Shown: positions 27,232 to 48,073 of the stretch, in pieces
Position numbering within the stretch: position 1 is the first letter of the stretch
Layout: each line of letters begins with the position of its first letter
Source of the DNA: Cohnella herbarum
Lineage (GTDB): Bacteria; Bacillota; Bacilli; Paenibacillales; Paenibacillaceae
Assembly (NCBI RefSeq): GCF_012849095.1
Contig: NZ_CP051680.1
Location: 2,604,001 to 2,668,000 of the forward strand
Direction of reading: 5' to 3'
Length of the DNA stretch: 64,000 nucleotides
Translations under genes and position numbers: made by a program
Notes under the pieces: model-generated
What the model was told of the DNA's origin: nothing
The model's input: only the letters and a program-made list of their open reading frames with translations
Database searches by the model: none

Positions 27232-30200
27232 TTAAATCAATCTCATCGATTGAAGCAATCTGCTCAGAATGACCGCGGCTTCCGCTCTTGATGCGAGGTC
27301 GCCCGGAGCGAAGATCAAGGAGGTTTTGCCTTTCATAATTCCATGGCTCATTACCTTATGGACCGACTCAAGAGCCCAAGAGTGAATGAGACCCAGATCC
27401 TGCAGCCCTTCCGCGTTAATTCCGGTTGGCTTCTCGGTTTCCGCGACTAAACTTAACGCCCTAGCCGCCATGACCGCCATCTGTTCTCTCGTGATCGTCA
27501 GATGAGGACCGAACGTACCGTCCGTGTTGCCTTGAACGATTCCTTGCTGGGAAGCGATCTTAACCGTTTCGGAGAACCAATCTTCCGGACGCACATCCTT
27601 GAAGGCGACTTTCGTTCCATTGTCTCTTAATGCTAGAGCTCGAACGATCATCGAAGCGAACTCCGCTCTCGTTACCGTCTTACCCGGCGCGAAATCGTCG
27701 GAGGATACGCCGTTCAGGATTTGCTTGGAAGCCAGGAGCGAGATTTCTTTGTTTGCCCAATGGCCAACCGTATCTTTGAACGATTTGGGATTGACGGCGA
27801 TAACGTAAATACTGTTCCCGGTACTCTTAATGGTGACGATCGTTTGACCGTTCGCCATGCTGAACAAAGCAGGCACGTAAGTAAATTTCCCCGTGCCAGG
27901 ATCGTAGACGAACGCCGCAGCGGTCGTTCCATCGACCGCTTCCTTCAAGCCGATCGTTCTCTCCACGAACGTCGTGCCGAAGCTATGAAATTCGGCCGCA
28001 ACCGTCTCGCCGCGGTAAAGCTTAATACTGAAGTCGATCGGGCTGCCGACGATCTTCATCCCCTGCGCCGTCGCTTTCGCGGCGATTTCGTTCGCCGTTT
28101 CCGAACCTACCGTCTGGATGGAAAATTCCCAGACGGCATTCGCTTCATCGCCGATACCGGACTGCTTCAGCATCTGAACGATTAGCTTCGCCGGGAACTT
28201 ATAGCTGGCATCCCCGTGTTTAATGACGATCATCGATTCGGGATGATCTTTCGCGAACTTCGTCAGCGTGCCAACGGTAAAAGGAACCTTCCCGATCGGC
28301 TTGCTGCCATCGGTTACGAATTCGATCGCGGCACTGTTCGCGGCGGCTCCGTTAAGCTTCTTGTCGTTGTCGGCCGCTGAACCCGGCGTAACGACGACTC
28401 CACCTCCTGCACCCCCATCGCCGCTGGAACCTCCGCCAGGGTTAGCCGAGACCGCAACGTCCAGAGTAAATACCCGCGTATCCGCTCCAACTTGAACCGT
28501 TACCTTTCCTTGGCCGGGCAAGATGGCGCTAATCCTTCCGTTCGCGCCTACCGTTACGATCCCGGACGGTTCCGCTTGAATAATCGCATTCGCGGTAACT
28601 TCCAAGCCGGCCGCGTTCCAAACCCGGAGCGTGTCCGTTTGTCCGGCACGTAAGGCGAGCGGCCCCGTACTTCCGTTAGCCAAGCTCACGCGGAAGGGTT
28701 TCGCCACCGAAGCCAATCCTTCATTCTGTTCGGCTAAAGTAAAGCCTTCGGGCAACGGGCCAACCATCGCCATGCGTTCGCCTCGCACGATTACGTTATC
28801 CAAGATCAATCTGCCTTTAATTCCCGTAGAAGCTTCGATTCCGTTCGTGCCCGTTCCGTCCACGACGATATTTTGCAGTAATACATTGTCCATACTAAAC
28901 GTCCCGTGAGCGAAAATACCGCTGTTCGTGCTATCGAGCGCCAAGTTGTCGCGCACGATAATGTTTCCGTTCAAATCCTTATCGCTAGCGAACAACCAGA
29001 TCGCTCCTAGATTCAATCCATACCCGGAATCAAAGCTTCCGGTACGGATAAGCGTATTGCGCTCCACGATCGTCGTTCCGGAGAACGGTACCGGATTAAA
29101 GCGGGTAGAAACGGCGATTCCCGCTCCGTTAACGATCGTATCCTTGGCGATGTTGTCCTGAATTTTGTTATCCCTTCCGCCGAATACGACGATATTATCG
29201 GCAAGCCACGGCAACGAGACGGTATTGAATCTCGCCGTATTGTTCGTGCTGGCCATCCCTCCGGTAGACCACATCGCGATTCCGTCGTCTCCCGGATAGC
29301 GGATATCGGTCTGCTCCATCATGCTGTCGCTCGTACCGACGCAGAAGTTGATTCCGTCGGCCATTAGATTGCGTAGACGGAGTCCCATCATGTATAGTCC
29401 CTGAGTCAGCTCATCGCTTGTTTTAGGTTTGGTCAACCACAAGCCCGTTTTGGAGTGTTCGACCCACACGTCTTGAATGACGGAACCTATACCGAACGCG
29501 CCTTCGAACGCATGCGTGCTCGCTTCGTCGTCGCGGACGTTAAGATCGCCGTCGATCAGCAGGTCGTACACTTGAATGTTAGCGCCTTTGCCGAAAAACT
29601 TAGCTCCCTTGAGCTTCGTATACCACATACCCGCTCCGCGGATCGTAATCCCGTCGAGATAGAGCAGCTCGTTACCGAAATCGAACTCGCCCTGCGGTAT
29701 CCAAAGGCCTTTGCCCTGCGTCTTAGCGTCCGCCATCGCTGCCACGAATGCCGCGGTATCGTCGACGCCGTCATTTGGAGACGCGCCGTAATCGGCGAGC
29801 GATACGAACGATGCCGGCTTCGAATAAGGATTGGCAACCTGTTCCATATCCGCCAGATCGATGACATAGTAGTCCGCCGTGCTCGTTGCGTCTTTCTGCA
29901 GCTTAATCGTAGCCCCGGCCGGGACGTCTCCGATCAAGGCGTGAATCTCGTCGAAGAAACGATGTCCGTTACCCTGGTTCGGATCGTTCGACCAAGGATA
30001 CCCGCCATACTCCCACGCATGTTTGGAGGTCAAGTTAAGATTCTGCTTGAAAACTCCGTTAACGTATAACGCAAGATCCGCTTGCAATCCCGCTCCATCC
30101 GCGCTATCCGGCATCGAATATCTCAACACGATGGAGTTAGCCGGCTTAGCTAGCTTAAATTCCACAAACTCGCCGGTTTCGTCCAGCCTGACCGCTTGTC

Positions 30201-33902: not shown

Positions 33903-33960
33903 ATCATAGAGTGGAAACGCTTACCAAACGATGTGTATTCTTAAACGAAATAGGCGTAAT
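33903..33960 (-). promoter_or_regulatory. Promoter of the GH87 gene with response-regulator element
   Basis: Minus strand: AGAATACACATCG half-site (CACAT at 33935-33931), a weaker half-site CGCCT 21 nt upstream (33956-33952), and TATGAT -10 (33908-33903) 22 nt after CACAT. There is no good -35, as expected for an activated promoter. The same layout precedes three other genes in this locus. Confidence 0.65.
33912..33925 (-). promoter_or_regulatory. cre site (CcpA) in the GH87 promoter
   Basis: TGGAAACGCTTACC matches TGNAARCGNWWNCA with one mismatch. It lies between the activator element and the -10 box, a position where CcpA would repress. Confidence 0.65.
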
Positions 33961-33981
33961 ATTACGACATATGAAACGGCA

Positions 33982-34015
33982 AGAAGGCTGTCGCGACAGT
34001 GCGCGACAGCCTTCT
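33982..34015 (-). terminator. Strong hairpin between the DUF6259-like gene and the GH87 gene
   Basis: AGAAGGCTGTCGCG with a 6-nt loop and perfect 14-bp complement, 11 bp after the stop. The tail has no long T run. It separates the upstream operon from GH87, which has its own promoter. Confidence 0.7.
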
Positions 34016-34025
34016 ACATCAACCA

Positions 34026-36752
34026 TCAATAAGCTTCGAATTCCGCGATTTGCGCGGCCGGCCATCCCGTATTGCCGGTGATCGTCAATCGCACGAACTT
34101 CGTAGTCACTCCGGTAAGCGCTATTTCTACCGCATTGGCGTTCTTCGGATCGAACGTGTACGGCTTCGGCGCAAGCACCGATGTAAACGTCTCGCCATCG
34201 GCGCTAACGAGAACTTCGATTTCTTGATCCCGCGCTTCCCATGCATCTTGCGGCGGCAGTCGCAAGATCACCTTGCCGACGGCCTTCTCCTCGCCAAGAT
34301 CCAACGTCAGAGACTGCGGGAATTTCTTGGCCGTGCTTTCCCAATACGTGTACGGATCGCCGTCAACGGCAAGCTCCGGCGGGAAAGCATCTGCCGTGTT
34401 GGAAGTCGCGAATACTTTCTGCTGCAGCGCTACGTTAATCTGAACTTTGATTTTCTCGAACGTTTCCGCGGCTTTGCTGACTTCCTTGGCCGAAGTCAGT
34501 TCCACGTAACCGACCTTTTGATCTTTGATCAACGCAACGTAGTCGAATAGGACGTAATCTCCCTCTTCCTTAACCGGAAGTTCGGCGATCTTCGTTCCGT
34601 TCGCTTGATAGGCGATCGCGGCAACATGAGGCCAGTCTTTGCCTTTCTTGATCTTAAGCGTCGTATCCGCGCCGATCGGTTGATAGACGCGAATGAGATC
34701 CTTCTCCCTGACTTCAACGAGGTTATGCTCTCCCGCATCCAGATCCAAACCGTTATACCGAACGAAGTTGCCTGCCCGGCGATTGTCGTCGACCGCCTTC
34801 ACGTCGTAACCACCGGGAGCGAGCGTTACGTCCGCATCCAGGGTATAAGCTTCGTCTTTGTTCCAGTTCGCCGTAACTTTGTATTTGCCGAAATCCGTAA
34901 GCGTGACGGCGGGAGTCACTTGTTCGAAACCCTTTACCAACGAGTCGGCGTATTGCGATAGAACGTATTTCTGGAACACGCCTATCGTATCCACCCATGG
35001 ATTGGCAACGCCATTGAAGAAATCGGCGCTTAAATTGTAACCCATCGCCAAATTCCATCTCAGCATGTCTTGATCGTCCGTCATCGTCTCGGCGGCGAGA
35101 TCGTGATGATACTGCATCACCTTATCGCGGAACATCATACCGGACAACGGATAGTAATCCGTGTATGATGATGTATTCTTGCGATACTCCAGTATATCCC
35201 ACAAATAAGTCGAGCCCATAAAGCCGACCGAATCGTCCGCCAAGACGTCCGTTCCGTCTTCCATGTACATGTTGTGTTTAAGCGAATCGAGATAGTTTCT
35301 TACGCCTTGGAAATACGCCGAAGAAGGATCGGTTCCTTCCGGAATTTCTTTATTGAACACGTACGGGGAATTACGGATGCCCCACTGGTCCTCGAATATC
35401 CCGTCGAACCCGGCTTGCTCCAACAACTTCTTGTGCTCTTCGGCGGTCCGTTGCAGGAAGAACGGATGACCCGTGTTCACGACGTACCCGCTATGTTTGC
35501 CGTAGTCCTCTTTCATGATCGCGTTGTTTTCCTTGACGACGACCAAATCGTCCAGCGTCGTTCCGGAAGGCAATTTCTCGAACGTCGGGGAATGATTTCC
35601 CCACCAGCTCATGTTCGTATACGGCACGACGCGGTTGCCTTTGTCCTTCGCCGCTTTCATGAACGCGAGGAAGGCGGGTTCCCCGCCCCAGGCCGGATCG
35701 GGAGGCATGAAATCCGGATAGTTCTCGTCATGGCCGCCCTTCTGGAAGCCGACCAGATGCAGAATTCCGTTGTAATTCATTTTGTCCACGTAATTTTTGG
35801 TCAGATTGTTCCAGTTGCCGTCTTTGATCGCCGAAATATCCGCCTTGTAGAGCGGCAATTCGAAATAAGCTTGCTTCTCCTTGCCCAATTTGTCGTCCAA
35901 GGAGCGATACTCGTCGATTTTGTTCAGCTTGCGATAGCTTTCGGCCGTCTTCCCATAGTCCCCGAGTTCGATGACTACGGAAGGGCTGCTCCACTGCTTC
36001 TTGGGGTCGATCCACGTTTTGTAGTTGTGAACGATTCCCGTCTTTCCTTTATCGTCTACTTGACTCTTGAAGCCGAGCTCCGTCGTAGCCACGATATCGC
36101 CATGCAGGTCATATACGGCGAGGTTGCCGCCGGTCGTTCGCAATCCGACGTAGGAAGCGAACATAACCCCCGGATACTGATCCTGGAAGGAGTTGCTCTC
36201 CTTGAAGAAAGCATCCCGCAGCTTAGCCCCCGGAAGCATCGGCAGCATACCGTCCGTAACGGTCGCGGAGTCTACCTTCAGCTCGTAAGGAAACCGGAAG
36301 GATTTAATCGTCTTGTCCGACTGATTATCGACCTTGGCATCCAAGTAAATCCGATTTTCCTCGTTGAATCGGGCGGTCACTTCTACTTGAATTGACCCCC
36401 CGTAACGAAACGAGAGCTCGCCTTTCCGACCGTTCCAATCGTAAGAGAAATTTTCGGCCTTCTGGCCGTTCGTCGAAGAATCGTCCTGAAGGAACGCCCA
36501 CCATAACGCGTTCTCCCGATTGCCCAACGTGATGTTGTCCGAAGAGTCTTCATTCTTAAGATAAGCGATCGCGCCGTTATCAGAGCGAAAAGCGATCTCG
36601 TACTGTCCGCTCTTGACGATCAACAACCCGTCTTTGTCCTTGAAGCTGGCTTTGGCGCTGAACGGAGTATTCAAGAATAAGTACGCCGCTGCCAGCAGGA
36701 TGATGACGACCCCGAACGAGATCCATGCCGCTTTCGATTGCCAAATGCGCAT
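34026..36752 (-). CDS. DUF6259-like membrane-anchored glycosidase with discoidin domain
   Basis: A 908-aa extracellular protein. One N-terminal TM (WISFGVVIILLAAAYLFL) serves as anchor or signal. A beta-rich domain spans about 35-270. A TIM-barrel-like region follows (YNGILHLVGFQKGG, RVVPYTNMSWWG, GFDGIFEDQWG), with the Asp of FEDQWG a candidate catalytic residue. The C-terminal ~130 residues read as F5/8 type C (CBM32; LAVDGDPYTYWES, ITGNTGWPAAQIAEFEAY). I match the core to DUF6259 from memory. The reaction is unknown but the operon (GH31, GH87, ABC importer) says alpha-glucan trimming outside the cell. It starts 15 bp after GH31. Confidence 0.65.
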   Translation of the reverse strand: MRIWQSKAAWISFGVVIILLAAAYLFLNTPFSAKASFKDKDGLLIVKSGQYEIAFRSDNGAIAYLKNEDSSDNITLGNRENALWWAFLQDDSSTNGQKAENFSYDWNGRKGELSFRYGGSIQVEVTARFNEENRIYLDAKVDNQSDKTIKSFRFPYELKVDSATVTDGMLPMLPGAKLRDAFFKESNSFQDQYPGVMFASYVGLRTTGGNLAVYDLHGDIVATTELGFKSQVDDKGKTGIVHNYKTWIDPKKQWSSPSVVIELGDYGKTAESYRKLNKIDEYRSLDDKLGKEKQAYFELPLYKADISAIKDGNWNNLTKNYVDKMNYNGILHLVGFQKGGHDENYPDFMPPDPAWGGEPAFLAFMKAAKDKGNRVVPYTNMSWWGNHSPTFEKLPSGTTLDDLVVVKENNAIMKEDYGKHSGYVVNTGHPFFLQRTAEEHKKLLEQAGFDGIFEDQWGIRNSPYVFNKEIPEGTDPSSAYFQGVRNYLDSLKHNMYMEDGTDVLADDSVGFMGSTYLWDILEYRKNTSSYTDYYPLSGMMFRDKVMQYHHDLAAETMTDDQDMLRWNLAMGYNLSADFFNGVANPWVDTIGVFQKYVLSQYADSLVKGFEQVTPAVTLTDFGKYKVTANWNKDEAYTLDADVTLAPGGYDVKAVDDNRRAGNFVRYNGLDLDAGEHNLVEVREKDLIRVYQPIGADTTLKIKKGKDWPHVAAIAYQANGTKIAELPVKEEGDYVLFDYVALIKDQKVGYVELTSAKEVSKAAETFEKIKVQINVALQQKVFATSNTADAFPPELAVDGDPYTYWESTAKKFPQSLTLDLGEEKAVGKVILRLPPQDAWEARDQEIEVLVSADGETFTSVLAPKPYTFDPKNANAVEIALTGVTTKFVRLTITGNTGWPAAQIAEFEAY

Positions 36753-36767
36753 TGCCGCACCTCTCCC

Positions 36768-39185
36768 CTATAACCGGATTCGAATTTCGAAGGAATGATT
36801 TGCCGTTATCGAAACCTGCAGTCGGCGACTGTCCCCGTCGTAAACCCATGTATCGACTTCCGTGCCGCCGGTCGAACTTAGTTCCTCCGGTTTAGAAGCG
36901 ACGGGTTCAATCGTCAATAACAACTTCTGAGCGCTATTCAGCCCGTCGTGCGCATAATCGCAAGCGATGATCAACCCTTCCTCGGAAAGCTCTCGCAAAC
37001 GCCAATTCCGAAGCCGATATTGACCGGATTCATAAGCATACGTGCGCCCGTCGTCCTCGTAATGAGCGAACGAGTTTTCATCCGCTCCGCCCGATCCGAC
37101 ATAGAAACGAACCCGATCGGGCTCATCCGTCTGCTCCCCCATCGATTGCCTTAATGCTTGCTCGGGAACGATAGCCCCGGCTTTGACATAGAGAGGCATC
37201 GTATCTAGCGGAGCATGAGCCAGAACGGATTTGCCGCCTTCGTGCTTCTCTCCCGTCCAATAGTCGTACCAGACGCCCTCGGGCAAATAAACCGATCTAG
37301 ACTGCACGCCTGGACGGTAAATCGGAGCAACCAGAAAACTCGAACCGAATAAGAACTGATCGCAAACGTTATAGACGGCGCGATCTTCCGGATATTCCAT
37401 AATCAAAGCTCGCAGAATAGGCACGCCTGTCTTGTGAGCCTCATAGAACAGGGAATACAAGTATGGCATGAGCCGGTAACGCAATCCGATATACTCGCGG
37501 CAGATCGCTTCAACCTGATCTCCGAACATCCATGGTTCTTGCCTGCGGGACTCGATAACGCTATGGTTGCGGAAAAAGGGAACGAAAGCGCCCATTTGCG
37601 TCCACCTAGCCACGAGTTCTCCGGATGCGTGATGCGAGAATCCTCCTACGTCGGGGCCAGCGAAAGCAATGCCGGACATCCCTAGGTTCAGTACCATCGG
37701 AATACTCATCGCCATATGCTCCCAGAAGCTGCGATTGTCCCCGGTCCATACCGTCGCGTAACGTTGGATTCCCGTATAACCGGCGCGTGTCAGCACGAAC
37801 GGACGATCCCCGGACAAGCCTCGTTTCATTCCCTCGAAAGTTGCCTTAGACATTAAGAGACCATATAGATTATGCCATTCCTCATGGGTTTTCGGATTTC
37901 CGTTATTCGCGTGAACGACGTCCGGATCCATCGTCTTCGAATCGTTGAACACGGAAGGCTCGTTCATATCGTTCCAAATTCCGTTTATGCCCTGTTCGAT
38001 ATAGAACCGATGGTGATCCCCCCACCATTCCGCGGCGGCATCGTCGGTGAAATCCGGGAACGCGCTAAGCCCTGGCCACACTTTCCCGATGAAAATATCA
38101 CCTTCAAGCTTCCGACAGAAGTATCCGTTCTTAACGCCTTCTTGGTAGATGTGATATTTCGGGTCTTTCTTCACGCCCGGATCAACGATCGGGACGAGCT
38201 CGAACCCGAGCTCTTTCAATTCGGCCATCATTTCCAGCGGCTTCGGAAACCGCTTGGAGTCCCACGTAAACACTCTGTATTCGTCCATATAGTGAATGTC
38301 GAGATAGAGTACGTCGCACGGGATGCCTTTTTTCCGAAAAGTACGGGCAATGTCCAATACTTCCTCTTGGTTCATGTAGCTATATCTGGACTGCTGGTAT
38401 CCGATTGCCCATTTCGGCGGCATGTATGTCTTTCCGGTAATGTCGGTAAAACGTTTCACGACGTCCTTAATGCTAGGGCCGTTAAATAAGAAGAGATCCA
38501 GCTCGCCGCTGGCGATATTGACGGTATAACGATCTTCATGCGTTCGCATATCGAAAGTCGCTCTACCGGGGTTGTCTAGCAATAACCCATAGGCCGGTTT
38601 GCCATACTCGTAGTGGATCAAAAATGGAATCGATTGATATAGGGCATCCGTATCTTGCACGTGCGGCTCATATACGTCGCTGTTCCACATCTCGTAACGC
38701 TCGCCGTTTTTGTCGAGGAACCCGGTTTTCTCGCCTAGACCGTAGAAATGCGAATCGCTGGATTTAACAGCCGAGAAGGCGATCTTGTTCTTCTCGTCCC
38801 ATTCGGTCGCCAGCTCTTCGAACCATAGCTCCCCATTCCCGTTGAACAACCGCAACGAGAATCTCTCCGGATCGATAACCGCATGCATCGCCGGCGAAGA
38901 AATGACGATGTGACCGTCTTTCTCCTCGACTTCTACCGTTGTCGGCTGCGCCGCATCGTCGACGATAGCGGGAGTCGACCGCAGGTCGGGAGTCTCTCCG
39001 AAAAACAGCTTCATTCTAAGCAATTGTTCGTTAATAAAACAAAAAACCACATTCGCGCGTTCTCCGCGCAAAATGACGGTTCCTTCGATCCTGTCCGTCC
39101 TGTAAATGCGCCCTACCGAAGATGATAACGTCTTCTCCCGTTTGTCGTTCGGTCGGTCCGGCAATATCGCTTCGCTAGTCAACAT
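36768..39185 (-). CDS. GH31 alpha-glucosidase
   Basis: An 805-aa GH31 enzyme without a signal peptide, hence cytoplasmic. It has an N-terminal beta-sandwich, then the barrel with GIWNDMNEPSVF (nucleophile Asp), RAGYTGIQRYATVWTGDN (acid/base Asp) and the GGFSHHASGELVARWTQ block. It releases glucose from the non-reducing ends of alpha-glucosides. GH31 members acting on alpha-1,3 bonds exist, but linkage cannot be read here. ATG 39185 (GAGGAG ahead, 12-bp spacing) avoids the intercistronic hairpin that the longer frame would translate. It lies between the binding protein and DUF6259 genes. Confidence 0.9.
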   Translation of the reverse strand: MLTSEAILPDRPNDKREKTLSSSVGRIYRTDRIEGTVILRGERANVVFCFINEQLLRMKLFFGETPDLRSTPAIVDDAAQPTTVEVEEKDGHIVISSPAMHAVIDPERFSLRLFNGNGELWFEELATEWDEKNKIAFSAVKSSDSHFYGLGEKTGFLDKNGERYEMWNSDVYEPHVQDTDALYQSIPFLIHYEYGKPAYGLLLDNPGRATFDMRTHEDRYTVNIASGELDLFLFNGPSIKDVVKRFTDITGKTYMPPKWAIGYQQSRYSYMNQEEVLDIARTFRKKGIPCDVLYLDIHYMDEYRVFTWDSKRFPKPLEMMAELKELGFELVPIVDPGVKKDPKYHIYQEGVKNGYFCRKLEGDIFIGKVWPGLSAFPDFTDDAAAEWWGDHHRFYIEQGINGIWNDMNEPSVFNDSKTMDPDVVHANNGNPKTHEEWHNLYGLLMSKATFEGMKRGLSGDRPFVLTRAGYTGIQRYATVWTGDNRSFWEHMAMSIPMVLNLGMSGIAFAGPDVGGFSHHASGELVARWTQMGAFVPFFRNHSVIESRRQEPWMFGDQVEAICREYIGLRYRLMPYLYSLFYEAHKTGVPILRALIMEYPEDRAVYNVCDQFLFGSSFLVAPIYRPGVQSRSVYLPEGVWYDYWTGEKHEGGKSVLAHAPLDTMPLYVKAGAIVPEQALRQSMGEQTDEPDRVRFYVGSGGADENSFAHYEDDGRTYAYESGQYRLRNWRLRELSEEGLIIACDYAHDGLNSAQKLLLTIEPVASKPEELSSTGGTEVDTWVYDGDSRRLQVSITANHSFEIRIRL

Positions 39186-39212
39186 GTTCGTTCGATGCTC
39201 CTCGGATAGTGT

Positions 39213-39258
39213 AGAGGGTTGCCTACTGCAAACTTTCGTTCGCCTTAGGCAACCCTCT
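39213..39258 (-). terminator. Stem-loop between the sugar-binding protein gene and GH31
   Basis: A 13-bp outer stem (AGAGGGTTGCCTA and complement) encloses an inner stem GCGAAC-GAAA-GTTTGC. No T run follows, so it probably protects the binding-protein mRNA 3' end rather than stops transcription fully. Confidence 0.7.
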
Positions 39259-39264
39259 TTCAAA

Positions 39265-40725
39265 CTATTCTACTTTGATTTGATCGTAGAATTTCTCTTG
39301 CACGGTTTTCGCGGCGGCATCGAGCTGAGCTTTAAGATCTACGCCTTTTTTGGAGAAAACTTCTTGGATGACGTTAGTCATAGCCGCATAGAAATCTTGC
39401 GTATTGAATTGCGCTTCAGGCTTACCGTCCAGAAGGCTCATCAATTCGTCGCTGTATTGATATACGTTGTCGTATTTGTCGTATACCGCTTTGTTTTTCA
39501 CGCCGTATTCGGAATCTTGCTTGAAGTACTGAATAACAGGAGGTACGAAATATTTGTTCTCTGCTTTACGAGCTTGGATGTTTACTTCGAGCGACTCCAA
39601 CCCTTTGTCGGAGAAATAATCGAATACCGCGTATTGGAATGCCATTTGTTGTTCTTCCGGCGTTGCGTTCGGATTGATAACGAGGAAGTCTCCGCCGAGT
39701 ACGCCTGTGTGTTTGCCGCCTGCGCTAGCTGCCGGCATTGGATACACGAGCAAGTCTTCCGGTTTCATTCCGCCTTGGTTCAAGCCTTGATCGAGCGGAC
39801 CGTCCGGTCCGGCGATGACCATAGCCGTTCTGCCTTGAGCGAACGCGCCTACCGCATCTCCCCAGCCTAATGCCCAGTCAGCAGGGATAACGCTTGCTTC
39901 TTTTAACTTGCTGTAGAACTCGAGAGCTTTCAACCCGGCTTCGGAGTTAAATGCCGCCGTAACTTTGCCATCCGCGACCGTTTGGATTTCTCCGCCGGCT
40001 TCGAACAAGAAGTTCGTCCAGTTCCAGCCAGCTTCGTTTCCTTTACCCATCGGAGCGATACCGGAAATCCCTTTGCCCGGATCGGCAACCGCTTTAGCCG
40101 TGTTCAGCATGTCATCCCATGTCCAGTTCATTGGAGGAACGGTCGCGCCTTTGTCCGTCAGCATCTTTTTGTTGATTACCGTACCTACAACGTAACCTTG
40201 TTGCGGAATTCCGAAGATTTTGCCGCCGATGTTGAATTGGTCGAGCAAGATCGGGTTCAGTTGATCTTTTTTGTCATACGCGTTGAACAGTTCGGTAATG
40301 TCGGCTGCCCAACCTTTCTCCGCAAGGAACTTACCTTCCGTCGCGTAAGTGTTGAACAGAGTAGGCGCCTCGTTGGCTCCCATTTTGATCCCGATTTCGT
40401 TCGGGTTGTACTGCCAGTCGCTTTTGACGATTTCGACGTTAGGATACACTTCGTTGAAGCGTTTGATTTTGTCGTCTTCGAGAGCGCGTTTCTCTACCAA
40501 GTCCGGAGTCGGATAGTAGATGCTGATCGTTGCTTTAATTTGCGTATTGTCTACCGGAGGTGCTTCGCTGCTCTCGGCTGGAGGAGCCGCGGACGATTCG
40601 GCCGGCGTGCTCGCCGCCGGAGCGGAAGCGGATGGCGATGCATTGTTTTTGTTGTTGCCGCCGCATGCAGACAGCACAAGGCTGAATACGAGAAGGCTAG
40701 CGATAACCGTTGATATCTTACGCAT
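39265..40725 (-). CDS. Sugar ABC transporter substrate-binding lipoprotein
   Basis: A 486-aa SBP_bac_1 protein. Signal peptide MRKISTVIASLLVFSLVLSAC has a lipobox, then an Ala/Ser/Glu-rich linker to about residue 65. The binding domains contain WDDMLNTAKAVADPG and AMVIAGPDGPLDQG. It would present oligosaccharides released by the GH87 enzyme to the two permeases encoded just upstream. ATG 40725 has AAGGGGATT ahead. Its own promoter with the CACAT element lies in the 127-bp gap, so it has a second input besides read-through. Confidence 0.92.
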   Translation of the reverse strand: MRKISTVIASLLVFSLVLSACGGNNKNNASPSASAPAASTPAESSAAPPAESSEAPPVDNTQIKATISIYYPTPDLVEKRALEDDKIKRFNEVYPNVEIVKSDWQYNPNEIGIKMGANEAPTLFNTYATEGKFLAEKGWAADITELFNAYDKKDQLNPILLDQFNIGGKIFGIPQQGYVVGTVINKKMLTDKGATVPPMNWTWDDMLNTAKAVADPGKGISGIAPMGKGNEAGWNWTNFLFEAGGEIQTVADGKVTAAFNSEAGLKALEFYSKLKEASVIPADWALGWGDAVGAFAQGRTAMVIAGPDGPLDQGLNQGGMKPEDLLVYPMPAASAGGKHTGVLGGDFLVINPNATPEEQQMAFQYAVFDYFSDKGLESLEVNIQARKAENKYFVPPVIQYFKQDSEYGVKNKAVYDKYDNVYQYSDELMSLLDGKPEAQFNTQDFYAAMTNVIQEVFSKKGVDLKAQLDAAAKTVQEKFYDQIKVE

Positions 40726-40770
40726 TGTTGTTAATCCCCTTTTCGTTTTAATTGATTTGCTTACACGCTC

Positions 40771-40829
40771 ATCATAATGGAGGCGCATTCATCAAGGCGA
40801 TGTGTATTCCTATTTCGATCATGTGCAGT
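40771..40829 (-). promoter_or_regulatory. Promoter of the sugar-binding protein gene with response-regulator element
   Basis: Minus strand: two CACAT half-sites (40825-40821 and 40804-40800) exactly 21 nt apart, joined by ATGATCGAAATAGGAAT. TATGAT -10 (40776-40771) lies 23 nt after the proximal CACAT. It is 46 bp from the start codon. Confidence 0.7.
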
Positions 40830-40852
40830 TTTACGCATGCTGTTTTTCGACC

Positions 40853-41725
40853 TTACCCTTTGACGCCGCCTAAATGCAAACCGCGAACGATGTATTTCTG
40901 GAAGAGCAGGAACACGAGAACCGGCGGAAAAGAGATCATCGTCAAGATGGCGAACCGCAAGTTGAGATCCAATCGCCTGACTTCTATGACGTACTTATAG
41001 ATTGCCGTTGCAAGCGGATATCGTTCATTGCTTGAGAGAATGAGCGACGGCCAGTACCAGTCGTTCCATGCCGTCGAGAAGACGAAGATCGCAAGCGTAG
41101 CGAAGATCGGAACCGACAACGGGAACGCGATCTGGAAAAACAATCTCGGCTCGGATGCTCCGTCGATCCGCCCCGATTCGAACATCTCGATGTTGATGCC
41201 GTCGAAGAACGACTTTAGCAGCAAGAGGAAAAACGCGTTCGCTCCCGCCGGCAACCAAAGCGCCCAGAACGTATTCATAAGTCCGAGATCGCGCAGGTTA
41301 ACGAAGTTCGGAATAATGTACGTCGTCGGCGGGATAAACAAGGTCAACAGGAAGAAATACTGTATGACCTTCTTGTACGGCACGTTCATCCGGGATAAGC
41401 TGAATGCCGCGAACCCGACTACGAGCACCGTCATGACCATGTTCCCTGCAAAAATGAATAAGGTGTTCCTGACGAATAGCGGAAGTTCGATATGTCCCCA
41501 TGCTTTCGAGTAATTCTCGAAGTGCCATTCCGAAGGAAGGAACGTCGGCGGGAATGAATTGACTTCCGTGTTCAGCTTCAAACCGTTAAATAGAATAACG
41601 AGCATCGGGTACAGCATCGTGCACACCATGACGAGCACGATCAAAGTCATTAAGTAATACATGATCCTGGTTCCGGGTTTTTTCAAGTCGTAATTCGACA
41701 AGATTCCACGTTCCATCGTTTTCAA
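40853..41725 (-). CDS. Sugar ABC transporter permease (MalG/YtcP-like)
   Basis: A 290-aa permease with six TM segments. The usual EAA loop is in variant form (MFESGRIDGASEPRLFFQIAFPLSVP) and the C-terminal tail is KYIVRGLHLGGVKG. It partners the permease encoded 3 nt upstream. No ATPase gene is present in the cluster, as is usual for this group, where an MsmX-like ATPase is shared. The start at 41725 is the most upstream; ATG 41713 is possible. Confidence 0.92.
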   Translation of the reverse strand: MKTMERGILSNYDLKKPGTRIMYYLMTLIVLVMVCTMLYPMLVILFNGLKLNTEVNSFPPTFLPSEWHFENYSKAWGHIELPLFVRNTLFIFAGNMVMTVLVVGFAAFSLSRMNVPYKKVIQYFFLLTLFIPPTTYIIPNFVNLRDLGLMNTFWALWLPAGANAFFLLLLKSFFDGINIEMFESGRIDGASEPRLFFQIAFPLSVPIFATLAIFVFSTAWNDWYWPSLILSSNERYPLATAIYKYVIEVRRLDLNLRFAILTMISFPPVLVFLLFQKYIVRGLHLGGVKG

Positions 41726-41728
41726 AGC

Positions 41729-42649
41729 CTACGCCTCCTTCTTGTTGGACATTCTGTATTGGAGAACCGCAAGCAATCCGAGAACTAGGAACATCATGAC
41801 GCCCAGCGCTGACGCGGAGCCGTAATCTTGTTGTCTGAACGCGTATTTCACGACGAGCAACGCGTAAGTAAGCGTCGCGTTGTTGGGTCCGCCGTCCAGC
41901 ATAGCCATTTGCGATTGGAACCCTTGCGAAGTCGCAATGAGCTGGAGAAGAAACAACAGAATAATTTGGTTCTTGATGGCCGGCAGCGTGATATAGCGAA
42001 TTCGTTTCCACACGCCCGCTCCGTCGATTTCGGCTGCTTCGTACCAATCGCGCGGAATGCTCAGTATCGCGGCTAGGTAGATTAGCAAGGCGGAACCGAA
42101 GCTCTGCCAAGTTTCCATGACCACGAGAGAGATCATCGACCAAGCCGTATCCGTTAAGAAAGCAACCGAGTCGAAGCCTAATCTGGTGGTCACCGCGTTA
42201 ATCGGCCCTACAGGATCATACAGCCACCTCCACAGGCCGTATAATACGACGACCGGAACAACGTAAGGCAAGTAAGCGGCGATTCTGGCGAAACCCTGGA
42301 ATCTTCTCATCTCCGAGATGGAGATCGCGAACAGGATGGGCACCCAGAAGCCGATCAATACCCCTAGCGACATGTAGTAAAGCGTATTTTTCACCGAGGT
42401 CCATACATCGGGATCGTTGAATATCCGATTGTAATTATCCCAGCCTACGAACGTGTCCCCTTTGACGAAATCGATGTGGTAGAAGCTAAAGATGACCCCT
42501 TTGCCGATCGGCATCCATAAGAACGTGAAGAAGATGGCTACCGCGGGCAAGAGGAATAAATAGCCCCATAGATGTTTGGTCCACTTTGTGGGAGGTCGCT
42601 TGGTTTGGGATTCCAAGGGACGTATTGGAACGGCGTTGGTTTGATTCAT
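41729..42649 (-). CDS. Sugar ABC transporter permease (MalF/LplB-like)
   Basis: A 306-aa permease with about six TM helices. The first is LWGYLFLLPAVAIFFTFLWMP. The EAA loop is YEAAEIDGAGVWKRIRYITLPA and GGPNNATLTY is the conserved C-terminal periplasmic motif. It is the first gene of the transporter operon after the response regulator. A promoter with two CACAT-type half-sites sits in the 98-bp gap. Confidence 0.93.
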   Translation of the reverse strand: MNQTNAVPIRPLESQTKRPPTKWTKHLWGYLFLLPAVAIFFTFLWMPIGKGVIFSFYHIDFVKGDTFVGWDNYNRIFNDPDVWTSVKNTLYYMSLGVLIGFWVPILFAISISEMRRFQGFARIAAYLPYVVPVVVLYGLWRWLYDPVGPINAVTTRLGFDSVAFLTDTAWSMISLVVMETWQSFGSALLIYLAAILSIPRDWYEAAEIDGAGVWKRIRYITLPAIKNQIILLFLLQLIATSQGFQSQMAMLDGGPNNATLTYALLVVKYAFRQQDYGSASALGVMMFLVLGLLAVLQYRMSNKKEA

Positions 42650-42688
42650 TTGGTCTCCCTCATTCCTTAATATCTATCAATAACTACT

Positions 42689-42743
42689 ATTGTAGAAAAA
42701 GGAGCGCCAAGTGAACATGTGCGTATCTATTGGGATCATGGGC
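42689..42743 (-). promoter_or_regulatory. Promoter of the transporter operon with response-regulator element
   Basis: Minus strand: half-sites CCATG and ACATG (proximal CACAT at 42721-42717) 21 nt apart, linked by ATCCCAATAGATAC, close to the linker in the binding-protein promoter. TACAAT -10 (42694-42689) lies 22 nt after CACAT and 40 bp before the start codon. Confidence 0.7.
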
Positions 42744-42747
42744 AATA

Positions 42748-44082
42748 CTACTTCTTCATTTCGCTCGGGCTGATTCCGAAGTATTTCTTGAATATTTTGC
42801 TGAAATGTTCCGGGGATTCGTAGCCTACGCGCTCGGAAATCTCGTACCGGCGCAAATCGGTATTTTGGATCAGCCGCTTGCTCTCCTCCATTCGAAGTTT
42901 GATGACGTATTCCCATAAGTTCGTTCCGGTATTTTTCTTGAACAGATAGCTCAGATAATTGGGGCTTACGTGGTTTTTCTGCGCGACCTCGTTCAAAGTC
43001 AGCCCTTTCTGCGCGTAGTTGGAGTGAATGTATTCGTTGGCTTTCTCTACGATCAAGTTGTTCTGGGCTGCCAAATCCTCGTCCGTAGGATCCTCGGTAA
43101 ACAAACCCCACTTGAAATCGCCGAAGAAAAAGACGTGATGATCCTTATGCTCGCGGTTCCACACGATCGCCTTATTGACCTGAACGTTCAGCTCGGGCAA
43201 GAATTCGCGGCCTTTCAGAATCTGACTAATTCCGACAACGCATTGAAACCCTAGAAACCTATGGATGTGGAAATGTAAACTTCTTCCGATCATCTCCAGC
43301 TGATTGATATTGTCGACGCTGGAATCGCCGTATCCGGCCTCGTCCCACTGAACGATGATGCTGACGTCCCGGCTCTCGGAGTAGAAAGAATAATGATTCC
43401 ATTCCTTATCGAGAAGTTCGTTGACGATATTAAGAACCGCATATTGCAACAGCTTCGCGTCTTTCTCTTCTACCTTTATGCCTTTGGAGCTGGAGTCGAG
43501 ATCTATGCGGATCTTGATCATCGCGAAATAAGGTCCGCGAAGGACGATTTGATTGGCCTGTTCCAACCCGTACGTAATCGCCGAGGACGATCCCGACGGA
43601 TCTTCCGACAGAAGTTGATTCAAGATCTCGGTTCTTTCGGGATGGGGCTGTTCCATGCGAAAATGCTCGCGCAAATCCGAAATCATATCGGCTTGATCCT
43701 GCAAAGGACGATCCATGTGCAGAAGAACGTGCCGCACGGTATTCAGCAATTGCTCGCTGTTAATCGGCTTAATCAGATAATCCTTCGCTCCCAACCTCAT
43801 GGCTAGCTGAGCGTATTGGAAAGTCTCGTGGGCCGAGATTACGATGACCTGCACCCAAGGCTTGATGATCTTTGCTTGCTGCATCAGCTCGATCCCGCTC
43901 ATCGCGCCCATTTGAATATCCGTGATCAGCAAATCGATCGTTTCCATTTTCAAGTAATCCAATGCTTCGTAACCGTTATGAGCGGTATAAATATTCTGAA
44001 TGTTAAGCCCCGAGTTTTCCAGGAGACTGGCTAAGCCCCGGCATATGAGCGGTTCATCGTCCACGATTAGAATGTTGTACAT
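42748..44082 (-). CDS. YesN-type response regulator (REC plus AraC HTH)
   Basis: A 444-aa two-component regulator. The REC domain at 1-120 has acidic pair DDE at 8-10, phospho-Asp D55 in LLITDIQMG and Lys in DYLIKPI. A middle region of unknown fold covers about 130-335. Two AraC-type HTH motifs are at the C-terminus (LTLNEVAQKNHVSPNYLSYLFKKNTG and YEISERVGYESPEHFSKIFKKYFGISP). AraC-type dimers often bind direct repeats about 21 bp apart, which matches the elements found in front of four nearby genes. It is 22 bp after the kinase gene. Confidence 0.95.
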   Translation of the reverse strand: MYNILIVDDEPLICRGLASLLENSGLNIQNIYTAHNGYEALDYLKMETIDLLITDIQMGAMSGIELMQQAKIIKPWVQVIVISAHETFQYAQLAMRLGAKDYLIKPINSEQLLNTVRHVLLHMDRPLQDQADMISDLREHFRMEQPHPERTEILNQLLSEDPSGSSSAITYGLEQANQIVLRGPYFAMIKIRIDLDSSSKGIKVEEKDAKLLQYAVLNIVNELLDKEWNHYSFYSESRDVSIIVQWDEAGYGDSSVDNINQLEMIGRSLHFHIHRFLGFQCVVGISQILKGREFLPELNVQVNKAIVWNREHKDHHVFFFGDFKWGLFTEDPTDEDLAAQNNLIVEKANEYIHSNYAQKGLTLNEVAQKNHVSPNYLSYLFKKNTGTNLWEYVIKLRMEESKRLIQNTDLRRYEISERVGYESPEHFSKIFKKYFGISPSEMKK

Positions 44083-44104
44083 CGATTAGTCCCCCCGAAA
44101 TGTG

Positions 44105-45913
44105 TCATTGATCTGTCTGTCCGGCGCTTGCTCGTTTGGGAATCACGACGGTTACTTTGGTCCCTTCCGTAACGCGGGCTTCGTAATGCAAGCCGTAACC
44201 GTTGCCGAAGTGCAATTGGATACGCCTGTTGACGTTCTTGATTCCATAGCCGGTTCCCGTATCCGGAGCTTCGTTCTCGAGCAGCCGGTTTATCGCTTCG
44301 TAGTCGGTTTCTTTATATCCATTATCTTCGACGGCAATAATGATGTTCTCCTCCTCGGAACGAACGGAAACGATAATTTCCCCGTCCTCGCCCATATTGA
44401 TGACCCCATGGATGATCGCGTTTTCTATCAACGGCTGCAGCGTGATCTTGGGAATCATGTAGGGCATAACGTCGTCGCCGATATCCCAACGGATGCTGAA
44501 CCCGTATTCGTACCTCTTCTGTTGTAAGCTCGTGTAGGCCATGGCATGTTCAAGTTCTTCTTCGATCGAAATAAGTTCCCTGCCTCTGCTCAAGCTGATT
44601 CTCATCAGCTTCGACAGCTCCTTAATCATCTCGGCCGATCCCATATTTCCTTCTAGCGAGCTTTTCCAATAGATGCTCTCTAGCGTGTTGTACAACAAGT
44701 GGGGATTAATCTGCTGGTAGAGTAACTGCAATTGCGACTCTTTCTGCTTGATCTCCATCGTGTATTGTTCGTGAATCATGTCATTGATCCGGTTCGCCAT
44801 GTTGTGCACCGAGTAGATCAATACGCCGACCTCGTCGTTGCGCTCCTTCGACGGGACTCTCGCCAACGGCTTGCCGGGTTCATGGGAACGGGCGAACATC
44901 GCAAGCTTCCGAAGCGGGTTCATGAGCGAGCGCCAGAAGTACATCATGACGACAATCGCGAATAGGGAATAGACGATCGAGATCGTCTGGATTACTTGCT
45001 TCAAAGCGCTGATTTGCTGGAGCAAAGACTTCGTCGGGATCGTGTAAACAAGCTTTTGTTTCAAAGAATATTTCGTATGGATCACGTAAATGTAGTCCTT
45101 GGAAACCGCGCTAAGCGTTTCCTCCATCGCTTCGTTCGTGATTAATCCGTGGGGCAGCTTCAATACCTTGCCCATATCTTCCGTCGTCGTCGCAAGCACC
45201 CGGTCGGACCAATCGGTCAAGTAAAGCTCTCCGCCTTCGGGCAAGGAGACGGTGCTAAACGATTCCTCGATTTTCTTATCCATCTTCGTTGCGACGAGCA
45301 CTCCTACGATGCTCTTCCCGTTCGTGACGCTGTTGACCGTACGAAGATAAGCAAGCGTCTGCTGATCTCCTTTCGGCCCGAAATTGTCGATAAGCGCCAG
45401 TACGCCTTTGCCTCTTGCATTGAGGGCATCCTCGATCCAAGGCGTCTTCGTTTCGTCCGAATAGAAGAACACCTTAGCGGTGTTATTCGGCCGGTCGATA
45501 TCCGGAATCGAAGGGGCGAACGGATAGCTGTTGTTCGGGTCGTAGACGAACAGGAAATAGTAGATCGATTCCCCTCCGTATAATCCCATAGAGTTATTGC
45601 CCAGCAACGTATTCAACTCCCGATACTTAACGACTCGGTCGAATTCCACGTCCTTTTTGTCGCTTACCATGCTCTGAGTAACCGGATTCTGAATGATCGT
45701 CGTCATGATTCGGCTGATCGTATCGATATCCCTGTTGATCAAGAAATGATTTTGCTTATTCAACTCTTCATAGGCGTTGGTGACGTGTTCCTTCAGAATC
45801 TGTTCGGCTTTCGAGTTCGCGTACATATTCAGGAGAAAAACCGGACTCACCAATATTAAAAACAACAAAATCAATTGCTGTCTCACGTTCATCTTCGTCA
45901 AAGGATTTTTCAT
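44105..45913 (-). CDS. YesM-type sensor histidine kinase
   Basis: A 602-aa membrane kinase. TM1 is LILLFLILVSPVFLLNMYA, an extracellular Cache-like sensor covers about 40-290, TM2 is YSLFAIVVMMYFW, then HAMP, the His_kinase domain with the phosphorylated His in QQINPHLLYNTLESIYW, and a HATPase with TGYGIKNVNRRI. ATG 45913 has AGGTGA eight bases ahead. A GTG at 45925 is also in frame. It would sense a glucan fragment outside the cell or via the binding protein and phosphorylate the adjacent regulator. Confidence 0.93.
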   Translation of the reverse strand: MKNPLTKMNVRQQLILLFLILVSPVFLLNMYANSKAEQILKEHVTNAYEELNKQNHFLINRDIDTISRIMTTIIQNPVTQSMVSDKKDVEFDRVVKYRELNTLLGNNSMGLYGGESIYYFLFVYDPNNSYPFAPSIPDIDRPNNTAKVFFYSDETKTPWIEDALNARGKGVLALIDNFGPKGDQQTLAYLRTVNSVTNGKSIVGVLVATKMDKKIEESFSTVSLPEGGELYLTDWSDRVLATTTEDMGKVLKLPHGLITNEAMEETLSAVSKDYIYVIHTKYSLKQKLVYTIPTKSLLQQISALKQVIQTISIVYSLFAIVVMMYFWRSLMNPLRKLAMFARSHEPGKPLARVPSKERNDEVGVLIYSVHNMANRINDMIHEQYTMEIKQKESQLQLLYQQINPHLLYNTLESIYWKSSLEGNMGSAEMIKELSKLMRISLSRGRELISIEEELEHAMAYTSLQQKRYEYGFSIRWDIGDDVMPYMIPKITLQPLIENAIIHGVINMGEDGEIIVSVRSEEENIIIAVEDNGYKETDYEAINRLLENEAPDTGTGYGIKNVNRRIQLHFGNGYGLHYEARVTEGTKVTVVIPKRASAGQTDQ

Positions 45914-46010
45914 TTTCAAGCTCACCTAGCTCCCCCCAACGTATGTCGATCCCTATTATGAGCGCTTTCCCTATGAACGGGCAGAAGATTACGGCATTCG
46001 CGTACAAGCG

Positions 46011-46063
46011 CGCCTATTTTACGTAGAATAACACATTATCAGACAAATGATAGCCCTTACAAT
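46011..46063 (+). promoter_or_regulatory. Promoter of the chemoreceptor gene with response-regulator element
   Basis: Plus strand: CGCCT (46011-46015) and CACAT (46032-46036), 21 nt apart. TACAAT -10 (46058-46063) lies 21 nt after CACAT. The distal half and following bases (CGCCTATTT) are identical to those in the GH87 promoter. It lies 37 bp before the start codon. Confidence 0.65.
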
Positions 46064-46099: not shown

Positions 46100-48073
46100 A
46101 TGCGTATGTTCCGTTCGGTAGGCGCGAAATTATTCATCTTGTTTTTTGTTTCGACATTCGTTTCCGTTCTCCTTGTCGGTCTGATTTCGTACGGCAAATC
46201 CCAGTCCATTATCGAGGATAAGATCAAGACGGTTTCGCAACAAACCGTTAAAGAAGCGACGGAGAAGGTCGCCTTGATGCTCAAGCAGTTCGAGGATATG
46301 TCCTTGCAGTTCTCGACTAGCCGCGAGCTTCAACAGCAGTTGGATATCCTATTCGACGCTTCCGCCGATCCGGCCGATCTGATGAACGCGAAGATGACGG
46401 TTCAAGACACGCTGAATCAGATCGCCAGGACGAATACCTATATTAAATCGATCTCCTTATTCAATACCGGAGACGAGAATCAAACGATCTCTTCCGTTTC
46501 GACGGGATTAACGGCGATAGATCGCAAAGCCGAATGGTATACCAAGGCGATCGGAATGAAAGGCACCGCGTTGTGGCTGCCTATGATCGAGAACGGTTAC
46601 ACGGGCTTGGCGAAGGGCAACTTGTTCGCCTTGACGAGGGTCGTCAACAAATTCGTCATCGTCTTCGAGATCGATGCCGCGATGCTGACGCAAACGTTGG
46701 AAAGCATCCATTTCAGCGCGAGCTCCCGAATGTTCCTCTCCGACGGCCAAGGAACGATGCTTCTGTCCTCCAGGCCGGAAGACGTCGGAAAACGCTTCTC
46801 GGTGGCGGACGAATCCGACGATCAGTTGATCGTGTCCGAATTGCTGAAGAAAACTTCATGGACGCTAACCGGCGTCGCTCCCTTAAGCGAACTCGTCGCG
46901 GAAACGAAGGTCATTCGAAATCTGACCTACATCATGTGCGCAATCGCCGCGGTCGTCGCGATCGCAATCGGTTATCTCATCTTGTTGTACATAGGCAAAC
47001 CTTTATTGAAAATCCGCAATATGTTAAACGAAGGCGCGAAGGGCAACTTGAACGCAAGGGTGAAAATAAACAGAAAAGACGAAATCGGGGAGGTCGCCGA
47101 CAGCTTCGATCGGATGATGCAGCAGATGAACGGACTGATCGAGCAAACCCGAACGTCCGCACACAAGGTGCTGAATACCTCATCGACCTTGCTGCACGTA
47201 TCCCAGAACACGGCGACATCGTCCGGAGAAATTTCTACGGCGACGGGAGAGATCGCGGAAGGTTCCGCGCAGCTTGCATCCGAGGCGGACCAAGTGTTCC
47301 ATATCGTAGATTCCATGAACGCCGATCTTTCGAACGTCGTGAACGCGACGGACGAGATCAATGTTTCTTCGTTGGACGTGAAATCCGCTTCTTCGGAAGG
47401 CAAGCGATTTATGGAGGATGTCGTTCAAATGACTTTGGATTCGGAGAGTTCGATCGATCTGTTAGTCAAACGGGTCACGAAGCTGGAGGACAGTACGGGG
47501 GAGATGCAAAAAGTGTTCGGGTTGATGAACAAAATTACGAAAGACTCCAAAATTTTGTCACTGAACGCCGGCATCGAAGCGGCCCGCTCGGGGCAGCAGA
47601 GCGGAGGATTCAAAGTCATCGCCAAAGAGATGGGACTATTATCCGATCAAACGCACGATTCCTTGAATACCGTCAACTTGATGACGGAGACGATTCAGGA
47701 TGAAATCTCCCAGACGGTCAAAGCCTTAAAACACGCCTTGCCGTTGTTGCAAAATCAAATCCAATCGGTCAGAACCGCCAATGCGATTTTCAACAAAGTA
47801 TTCGAGAAATCGGAAGCCTTTACGCTCCACGTCGAACAAATCAAGGAAACCGTAGTTCGGCTCGAGTCGAAGCAGCGTCACCTGAATACGTCGATCGGGA
47901 ACGTAAGCAGCTTCTCCCAGCAAGCGTCGGCGACTTCCGAGCAAGTCTCGGCGCTGAGCACGGGCCAACTTCAATCGAGCCAAGAGGTCGTAGGGATCGC
48001 CAAGGAATTGGAGAGCTTATCCCTCTCCTTGCAGGAAACTCTCTCGGGTTTCTCTTCTCGCGATAAGATTTAG
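46100..48073 (+). CDS. Methyl-accepting chemotaxis protein
   Basis: A 657-aa chemoreceptor. TM1 (LFILFFVSTFVSVLLVGLI), an extracellular Cache-like sensor (about 35-275), TM2 (IMCAIAAVVAIAIGYLILLYI), HAMP (about 300-355) and a cytoplasmic signalling helix. The hairpin tip reads SLNAGIEAARSGQQSGGFKVIAKE, the MCP signature with small variations. GGGAGG precedes ATG 46100. It is divergent from the kinase and its promoter carries the same element as the transporter and GH87 genes, so it probably steers cells to the same glucan products. Confidence 0.92.
   Translation: MRMFRSVGAKLFILFFVSTFVSVLLVGLISYGKSQSIIEDKIKTVSQQTVKEATEKVALMLKQFEDMSLQFSTSRELQQQLDILFDASADPADLMNAKMTVQDTLNQIARTNTYIKSISLFNTGDENQTISSVSTGLTAIDRKAEWYTKAIGMKGTALWLPMIENGYTGLAKGNLFALTRVVNKFVIVFEIDAAMLTQTLESIHFSASSRMFLSDGQGTMLLSSRPEDVGKRFSVADESDDQLIVSELLKKTSWTLTGVAPLSELVAETKVIRNLTYIMCAIAAVVAIAIGYLILLYIGKPLLKIRNMLNEGAKGNLNARVKINRKDEIGEVADSFDRMMQQMNGLIEQTRTSAHKVLNTSSTLLHVSQNTATSSGEISTATGEIAEGSAQLASEADQVFHIVDSMNADLSNVVNATDEINVSSLDVKSASSEGKRFMEDVVQMTLDSESSIDLLVKRVTKLEDSTGEMQKVFGLMNKITKDSKILSLNAGIEAARSGQQSGGFKVIAKEMGLLSDQTHDSLNTVNLMTETIQDEISQTVKALKHALPLLQNQIQSVRTANAIFNKVFEKSEAFTLHVEQIKETVVRLESKQRHLNTSIGNVSSFSQQASATSEQVSALSTGQLQSSQEVVGIAKELESLSLSLQETLSGFSSRDKI

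Follow-up and report, generated by a model that had tools for sequence, protein, structure and literature searches.

The window analysed here, the whole 64,000-nucleotide (nt) stretch of the Cohnella herbarum chromosome at positions 2,604,001 to 2,668,000 of contig NZ_CP051680.1, carries a cluster for polysaccharide use in which a YesM/YesN-type two-component system adjoins genes for sugar import, surface hydrolysis and, on the opposite strand, a chemoreceptor (Table 1). Gene identities were assigned by Pfam and NCBIfam domain searches. The two-component assignment rests on a sensor gene with His_kinase and HATPase_c domains standing next to the gene of a response regulator with an AraC-type helix-turn-helix (HTH) domain; in the translation of the regulator the receiver pocket is intact (D8, D9, D55 and K105), and its PDB matches include 3lsg, named YesN. 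Our subject is a tandem operator found in front of four genes of this cluster, which the YesN-type regulator would bind.

The locus and its four promoters

As read and measured in the window, the promoters of the first permease gene, the binding-protein gene, the GH87 gene and the chemoreceptor gene each hold two direct half-sites at a pitch of exactly 21 nt. An earlier note on this DNA had described the shared layout at these four promoters, and its coordinates, boxes and spacings agree with our re-measurement, as does the pitch; the half-site is longer than written there, namely 14 nt. Its sequence is near GTARNAWYRCACAT, with TA at positions 2-3 and a CRCMT box at positions 10-14, the two boxes being spaced about one helical turn. 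The distance from CACAT to the -10 box is 22 nt at the permease promoter, 23 nt at the binding-protein promoter, 22 nt at the GH87 promoter and 21 nt at the chemoreceptor promoter, exactly as the note had given it. Its statement that a good -35 is absent also holds, as the best TTGACA match at the four promoters reaches only 4/6 with spacers between 15 and 19 nt, and no more than 3/6 with a 17-nt spacer. The alike linkers that it had pointed out are real in part, being to some extent half-site 1 itself (CCCAT or CACAT followed by GATC; CGCCT followed by ATTT). Direct, similar half-sites about 21 base pairs (bp) apart, with two boxes in each, are the features of an AraC-type tandem operator, and at all four promoters the operator lies at the -35 position, the -35 is weak and the -10 stands at a fixed distance, as in a class II layout. 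Half-site 1 of the permease operator overlaps the stop codon of the regulator gene, and coding constraint may therefore account for some of its conservation.

Table 1. Genes, operators and promoter elements in the window (positions counted from its first letter)
Feature	Positions	Strand	Remarks
YesM-type sensor histidine kinase	44105..45925	-	His_kinase, HATPase_c; dCache match below Pfam cut-off
YesN-type response regulator	42748..44082	-	receiver and C-terminal AraC-type HTH; presumed binder of the operator
ABC permease 1	41729..42649	-	
ABC permease 2	40853..41725	-	
Sugar-binding lipoprotein	39265..40725	-	likely start 40725 (MRKISTVIASLLVFSLVLSACGG), not the mechanical open reading frame start 40788
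GH31 alpha-glucosidase-like enzyme	36768..39263	-	downstream of the binding-protein promoter
DUF6259 protein with F5/8C domain	34026..36752	-	hydrolase candidate
Surface (SLH) GH87 alpha-1,3-glucanase	27232..33864	-	2210 aa
Chemoreceptor	46100..48073	+	HAMP, MCPsignal; dCache match below Pfam cut-off
Operator, first permease gene	42712..42752	-	conserved in relatives
Permease operator half-sites	42751-42738 (GTAGTATTGCCCAT) and 42730-42717 (ATAGATACGCACAT)	-	
Permease -10 TACAAT	42694-42689	-	
Operator, binding-protein gene	40795..40835	-	
Binding-protein operator half-sites	40834-40821 (GTAAAACTGCACAT) and 40813-40800 (ATAGGAATACACAT)	-	
Binding-protein -10 TATGAT	40776-40771	-	
Operator, GH87 gene	33926..33966	-	cre-like site between operator and -10
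GH87 operator half-sites	33965-33952 (GTAATATTACGCCT) and 33944-33931 (TTAAGAATACACAT)	-	
GH87 -10 TATGAT	33908-33903	-	
Operator between the divergent chemoreceptor and sensor-kinase genes	46001..46041	+	
Intergenic operator half-sites	46002-46015 (GTACAAGCGCGCCT) and 46023-46036 (GTAGAATAACACAT)	+	
Chemoreceptor -10 TACAAT	46058-46063	+	
Candidate -10 CATAAT, sensor-kinase/regulator operon	45955..45960	-	40 nt from the intergenic operator, which is backward relative to the operon

Conservation and genomic distribution of the operator

A match to the regulator at E<=1e-60 was present in 36 of 60 genomes, the window genome (G000) included, and loci of 12 to 20 kb from 35 other genomes were mapped by tblastn. 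The sensor, the regulator, both permeases and the binding protein were each matched in all 35 loci, some partially, and the presence of the GH31, DUF6259, GH87 and chemoreceptor genes varies among them. For matrices and tests, 35 loci each supplied the operators of the permease and of the binding protein, and nine each supplied those of GH87 and of the chemoreceptor, with the window counted in. Two regions below the matrix cut were left out, namely the L064 permease promoter and the L031 chemoreceptor region, and L057 contributed no binding-protein promoter. Among 20 shifts, 21 nt gave the best self-similarity in all four promoter types. With ties leaned to 22, the -10 spacing was 22 nt at 31 of 35 permease promoters, 22 or 23 nt at all 35 binding-protein promoters, 22 nt at eight of nine GH87 promoters and 21 nt at all nine chemoreceptor promoters.

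When a matrix built from the permease and binding-protein sites of the relatives was applied to the window, the GH87 site ranked third (21.6) and the chemoreceptor site fourth (14.2); the reverse training ranked the binding-protein site third (20.8) and the permease site fourth (14.0). Thirty simulated windows per matrix had mean maxima of 10.9 for both and highest values of 26.1 and 15.2, so that only the binding-protein score exceeded every simulated maximum; as the other three cross-scores lie within the simulated range, the argument rests on ranks and conservation. The genome scan that the earlier note had proposed was carried out with a sequence-only model of 33 sites from the window and its relatives, including the four of the window (three of the 36 chosen segments, one duplicate and two others, were left out of the alignment). 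Across 8.5 Mb it returned four strong matches (E 5.5e-8, 8.4e-7, 1.1e-6 and 9.9e-6), which are exactly the four window promoters; the next match had an E of 0.19. In the window and the 35 loci together, 119 matrix matches reached at least 16 bits: 35 before the permease gene, 35 before the binding-protein gene, 11 before the chemoreceptor gene, 10 before GH87, five before GH31 and two before the sensor gene in its own direction, with 21 initially lacking an assignment. By reading, 17 of these 21 are backward sites upstream of the sensor, two stand before binding-protein and GH87 genes with missed starts and two have no clear target. The shared promoter layout is confirmed as real and lies far beyond chance.

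The operator is also found away from the cluster. Twenty regions with operator matches were fetched, mostly far from it, and 11 of them precede glucanase genes. Six of these genes are distal (E 0.002-0.019), G037 and G028 contribute one each, and three are of S-layer type (L082, L084 and L086) on the contig or chromosome of the cluster. A further one is a decayed permease of G050. The CatAgl_D1 list of the genus includes seven of the eight distal glucanases (G037 lies outside the genus), and all four that were scanned by Pfam have both CatAgl domains. In the window genome itself, the fifth match (G000:C1:5741445-5741475) has the equivalent position before a distal glucanase gene about 3.1 Mb from the cluster.

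We therefore scored the regions upstream of 76 of the 79 glucanase places in the genus, no upstream having been fetched for the other three, against a null of 1650 Markov simulations based on 11 loci (99% level 9.9, maximum 21.9). The distal group comprises 26 places at >=190 bits, of which 25 were covered (25 genes in 25 genomes), and was absent from training. In this group 24 of 25 sites scored above the 99% level, G006 being the miss, and 10 scored above the null maximum; those 24 have a box matching TATAAT at four to six of six positions, 22 or 23 nt on. The distal-group gene of G035 adjoins the cluster rather than lying far off, and because most genomes are drafts, location on another contig alone is no proof of distance. 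The other groups were assigned by hand after the scores were known. Among them, sites stand before 12 of 14 genes in the nearby S-layer group, before 10 of 16 in a second distal group, where the sequence has diverged, and before none of the remaining 21. Matches near glucan genes of relatives, which the earlier note had asked for, are therefore present. A regulon that is larger than the cluster and would reach a mostly unlinked alpha-1,3-glucanase gene is well supported by these upstream matches. This unlinked member suggests that the substrate is alpha-1,3-glucan, a polysaccharide that occurs in fungi and in dental plaque.

The sites of the second distal group (L164-L178 in part; own gene G000:C1:1716674) form a diverged 21-nt repeat, which in the window genome reads TTGGAATCGCATAT, 21 nt on GTAGGATTACCTCT, and then TATAAT. 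It is perhaps the operator of another YesN-type regulator for the second glucanase.

Operator and regulator also tend to occur together. The operator (E<=0.05) is present in 36 of 60 genomes, 34 of which also have the regulator; within the genus (37 genomes) the regulator is found in 33, the operator in 32 and an alpha-1,3-glucanase in 29. The four genus genomes without the regulator (G018, G024, G030 and G033) have neither operator nor glucanase, G024 being only 78% complete, and four others (G002, G009, G013 and G031) have the regulator but no glucanase.

Several observations weigh against a regulon governed by this regulator through this operator. G035 and G043 have the regulator and no operator above threshold, the operator of G050 stands beside fragments of regulator and kinase, and G054 has a weak operator match (E 0.029) without the regulator. 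The relatives are not independent of one another, and since many sites adjoin the regulator gene, co-occurrence is partly linkage. Eight of the 20 fetched regions (L079-L081, L083, L087, L089, L090 and L092), all weak (E 0.001-0.04), do not precede a glucanase gene, and the distal site of the window genome is itself weak (E 0.19; 17.0 bits, under the null maximum). Finally, the 21-nt pitch gave no peak at 28 other AraC-type regulator loci of the genome, a small sample with 11 usable upstream regions, and we accordingly claim no family-wide 21-bp rule.

Two sets of these regions deserve a description of their own. L079-L081 hold alike operator-like matches in G011, G034 and G005, before repetitive open frames without a clear downstream gene. 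The G050 region (L085, G050:C4:60100-80000) is a decayed cluster with fragments of sensor, regulator, permease and binding protein, in which the permease operator looks intact.

The operator between the chemoreceptor and sensor-kinase genes

The operator at the divergent end of the cluster most likely has two roles. A scan of 700 nt upstream of the sensor gene found a site directed away from the sensor, mostly at -75 to -86 from its start, also in loci without a chemoreceptor gene, that is, with no tblastn match at 1e-3 in the fetched stretch. Such a backward site of at least 14 bits precedes the sensor in 30 of the 35 loci in which its 5' end is covered and is lacking in five; L055 and L064 have a forward site ahead of the sensor that scores better. 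At 39-41 nt from the site edge, 29 of 35 loci show a -10-like hexamer (usually CATAAT, CATACT or TATACT) when ties lean to 40. Without tie preference, 28 counts from 30 loci fall at 39-41 nt (ties all counted), whereas 1000 shuffles averaged 9.4 and never exceeded 16, a comparison that, the loci being related, gives no clean probability. The sensor promoter thus has an inverted operator upstream of the -35 at a fixed distance from the -10, which is the arrangement of a class I backward site.

Towards the chemoreceptor, TACAAT or TAAAAT stands exactly 21 nt after CACAT in all eight loci with a full chemoreceptor gene, in none of the 20 loci without one (L060, whose contig begins about 340 nt upstream of the sensor, is uncertain in this respect) and not in the single locus with a gene fragment. 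L038, in which the two genes lie further apart, has two operators, one per promoter and each with its own -10; it was left out of the hexamer count, since its nearest site belongs to the kinase. From the fixed backward site and the hexamers on both sides, a single intergenic operator most likely works for two promoters, which meet it in opposite orientations. The sensor-side placement is the more widespread, and the site is most likely the own operator of the two-component system, to which a chemoreceptor promoter was added on the other side. The earlier note had assigned this operator to the chemoreceptor; the assignment most likely holds for the chemoreceptor-bearing loci, but the operator is also, and in more loci, placed for the sensor/regulator operon.

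It may be asked whether the operator at 46001-46041 serves the sensor-kinase operon only, with the chemoreceptor outside the regulon. The persistence of the site near the kinase start in the 20 loci without a chemoreceptor gene would fit this, but the 21-nt box is kept wherever the full chemoreceptor gene is present and absent where the gene is missing, and L038 has separate operators for the two genes, so that we consider this alternative unlikely. The reading in both directions can be taken further: the operator would be used backward, class I, by the sensor operon and forward, class II, by the chemoreceptor gene; autoregulation would be the older function, and the chemoreceptor would have docked on the free side. 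The half-site grammar, with DTARNANNRCRCMY twice, 21 bp apart, and the -10 about 22 nt on, may also apply, in other letters, to the closest YesN paralogues. To this whole proposal we give an even chance. The 44%-identical regulator has a cluster of its own (L093-L101; own copy G000:C1:3553000-3562000), in which a 21-nt repeat is conserved ahead of the binding-protein gene; most of these loci also have a weak site upstream of the cluster's sensor gene.

A second control may act at the glucanase promoters. Judged by the cre consensus, a cre-like site with at most two mismatches lies between operator and -10 at GH87 promoters in eight of nine loci, versus 1.8% of shuffles; at permease promoters (0 of 35) and binding-protein promoters (2 of 35) such sites find no support. 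Examples such as TGTAAGCGCTTATA occur at 33909-33930 on the minus strand and at the distal glucanase promoters L073-L078, where they run into the -10. CcpA control of the alpha-1,3-glucanase genes is likely. The threshold was also passed by seven of nine chemoreceptor promoters, for which we make no claim, as the window's site by reading has no CG core.

Elsewhere in the window, an inverted repeat seen by eye at 33981-34015 (AAGGCTGTCGCG...CGCGACAGCCTT), between the DUF6259 gene and the GH87 promoter, is probably a terminator, and a tandem G+C-rich repeat at 48240-48500 follows the chemoreceptor gene, with units near GCGGAATTAGAGCGG and CGGCTGCGCCGCTTTAAATCGAGCG (by eye).

A model for the regulon and its relation to known systems

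Taken with the position of the regulator gene amid its presumed targets, these results make it very probable that the YesN-type regulator encoded at 42748-44082 acts on the tandem operator to control import, hydrolysis, chemotaxis, its own operon and the distal glucanase. The earlier note had proposed a regulon of the import, hydrolysis and chemotaxis genes beside the regulator; the shared AraC-type operator and its class II-like placement bear this out, but the proposed set was incomplete, as the regulon appears to extend to the distal glucanase. We infer that the regulator, presumably phosphorylated, is the binder. It would probably dimerize head to tail along one face of the helix and occupy the two 14-nt half-sites, which lie 21 bp or two helical turns apart; each monomer would contact one TA box and one CRCAT box through consecutive major grooves. 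Since the operator borders on the position of the absent -35 at four promoters (permease, binding protein, GH87 and chemoreceptor), the regulator would touch RNA polymerase there as a class II activator. The kinase and regulator operon would meet the operator backward, about 40 nt upstream of its -10, in a class I-like manner that would give autoregulation. As the regulon would include the distant secreted alpha-1,3-glucanase, the signal is most likely alpha-1,3-glucan fragments. At the glucanase promoters CcpA probably adds repression, via the cre between operator and -10, over the contact of activator and polymerase.

A different AraC-type regulator might bind these operators, for example the 44%-identical paralogue at G000:C1:3558686-3560008. 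With 150 of 441 candidates scored, the genome has at least 189 places that match the regulator at E<=1e-10, a gene often accounting for two of them, and the paralogue's cluster has the look-alike repeat before its binding-protein gene. This repeat, however, differs in sequence, the strongest sites stand in the cluster of the regulator at 42748-44082, and a near-full-length second match (38-44% identity) occurs in at least 10 of 60 genomes (at most 28 candidates scored per genome) versus 36 for the operator, all of which renders the exchange of regulators improbable. Repression rather than activation by the YesN-type regulator appears hardly more attractive: the evidence on the sign is positional, and control at the kinase promoter might go either way, but none of the promoters has a good -35, and an operator abutting the -35 position is the layout of class II activation, familiar from AraC and described for RamA (PMC8811837). 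A chance resemblance of the promoter sequences is extremely improbable, for although short elements are common and three of four cross-training scores fall within the simulated maxima, the conservation in up to 34 other loci, the four-match genome scan and the distal glucanases all speak against it.

The architecture of the operator matches that of known AraC-type operators, both AraC I1-I2 and the motifs of hybrid two-component systems (HTCS) in Bacteroides. At araBAD I1-I2, Escherichia coli AraC recognizes two half-sites in tandem at a distance of 21 bp, of which the second overlaps the -35, and in both cases a divergent regulatory gene lies nearby; unlike the regulator here, AraC is arabinose-bound and not a response regulator. 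For the HTCS of Bacteroides thetaiotaomicron, predicted direct repeats (14- and 16-bp sites) on average 21 bp apart are reported, with dimers proposed to sit on one face two turns apart and regulons of hydrolase and uptake genes with some distant members (PMC3878776). Tandem repeats of about 21 bp and a known or, here, proposed hydrolase and uptake regulon with a distant member are common to both systems, but Bacteroidetes have one-piece hybrid sensors and SusC/D uptake. In Cohnella herbarum the sensor and regulator are a separate YesM/YesN pair, uptake is of ABC type, a chemoreceptor gene is added, and the promoter of the sensor itself has a backward operator.

The use of opposite orientations also has a parallel, in that the AraC-type HTH of RamA and MarA-type activators is described as probably binding oppositely oriented at class I and class II positions (PMC8811837, PMC2453137); those proteins are monomeric activators, in contrast to the tandem double site found here. 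XydS/XydR of Clostridium cellulolyticum likewise pairs a sensor with an AraC-type response regulator that controls hydrolase genes; the regulator was reported to bind directly upstream of a hydrolase cluster and of one other gene (PMC3572039). The section of that report that we used gives shared sequence stretches without a defined operator, and binding upstream of the two-component genes was tested there and not seen (PMC3572039), whereas the Cohnella herbarum operator is defined and also stands at the two-component system's own promoter. In Paenibacillus sp. JDR-2, an aldouronate cluster is co-regulated with a distant surface-anchored xyn10A1, and cre sites were predicted (PMC4765114); the pairing of a cluster with a distant surface hydrolase and cre sites is alike, but the substrate is xylan and the portion of that account available to us gives no operator. 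Among the papers listed by searches aimed at alpha-1,3-glucanases or mutanases, as judged by titles and abstract openings, we found none on an operator of such genes, and in the literature compared here no description of a two-way operator for a YesN-type regulator.

AraC-type response regulators are numerous in the genomes of this group, yet the literature compared here gives few defined operators for them. For the operator described in this study, up to 35 loci give a definition of every position. It predicts that an enzyme gene about 3.1 Mb off belongs to the regulon, suggests a substrate and offers five short testable fragments. If the proposed regulon is true, chemotaxis would be tied to polysaccharide digestion through one operator, and swimming towards alpha-1,3-glucan and its digestion would be under one switch.

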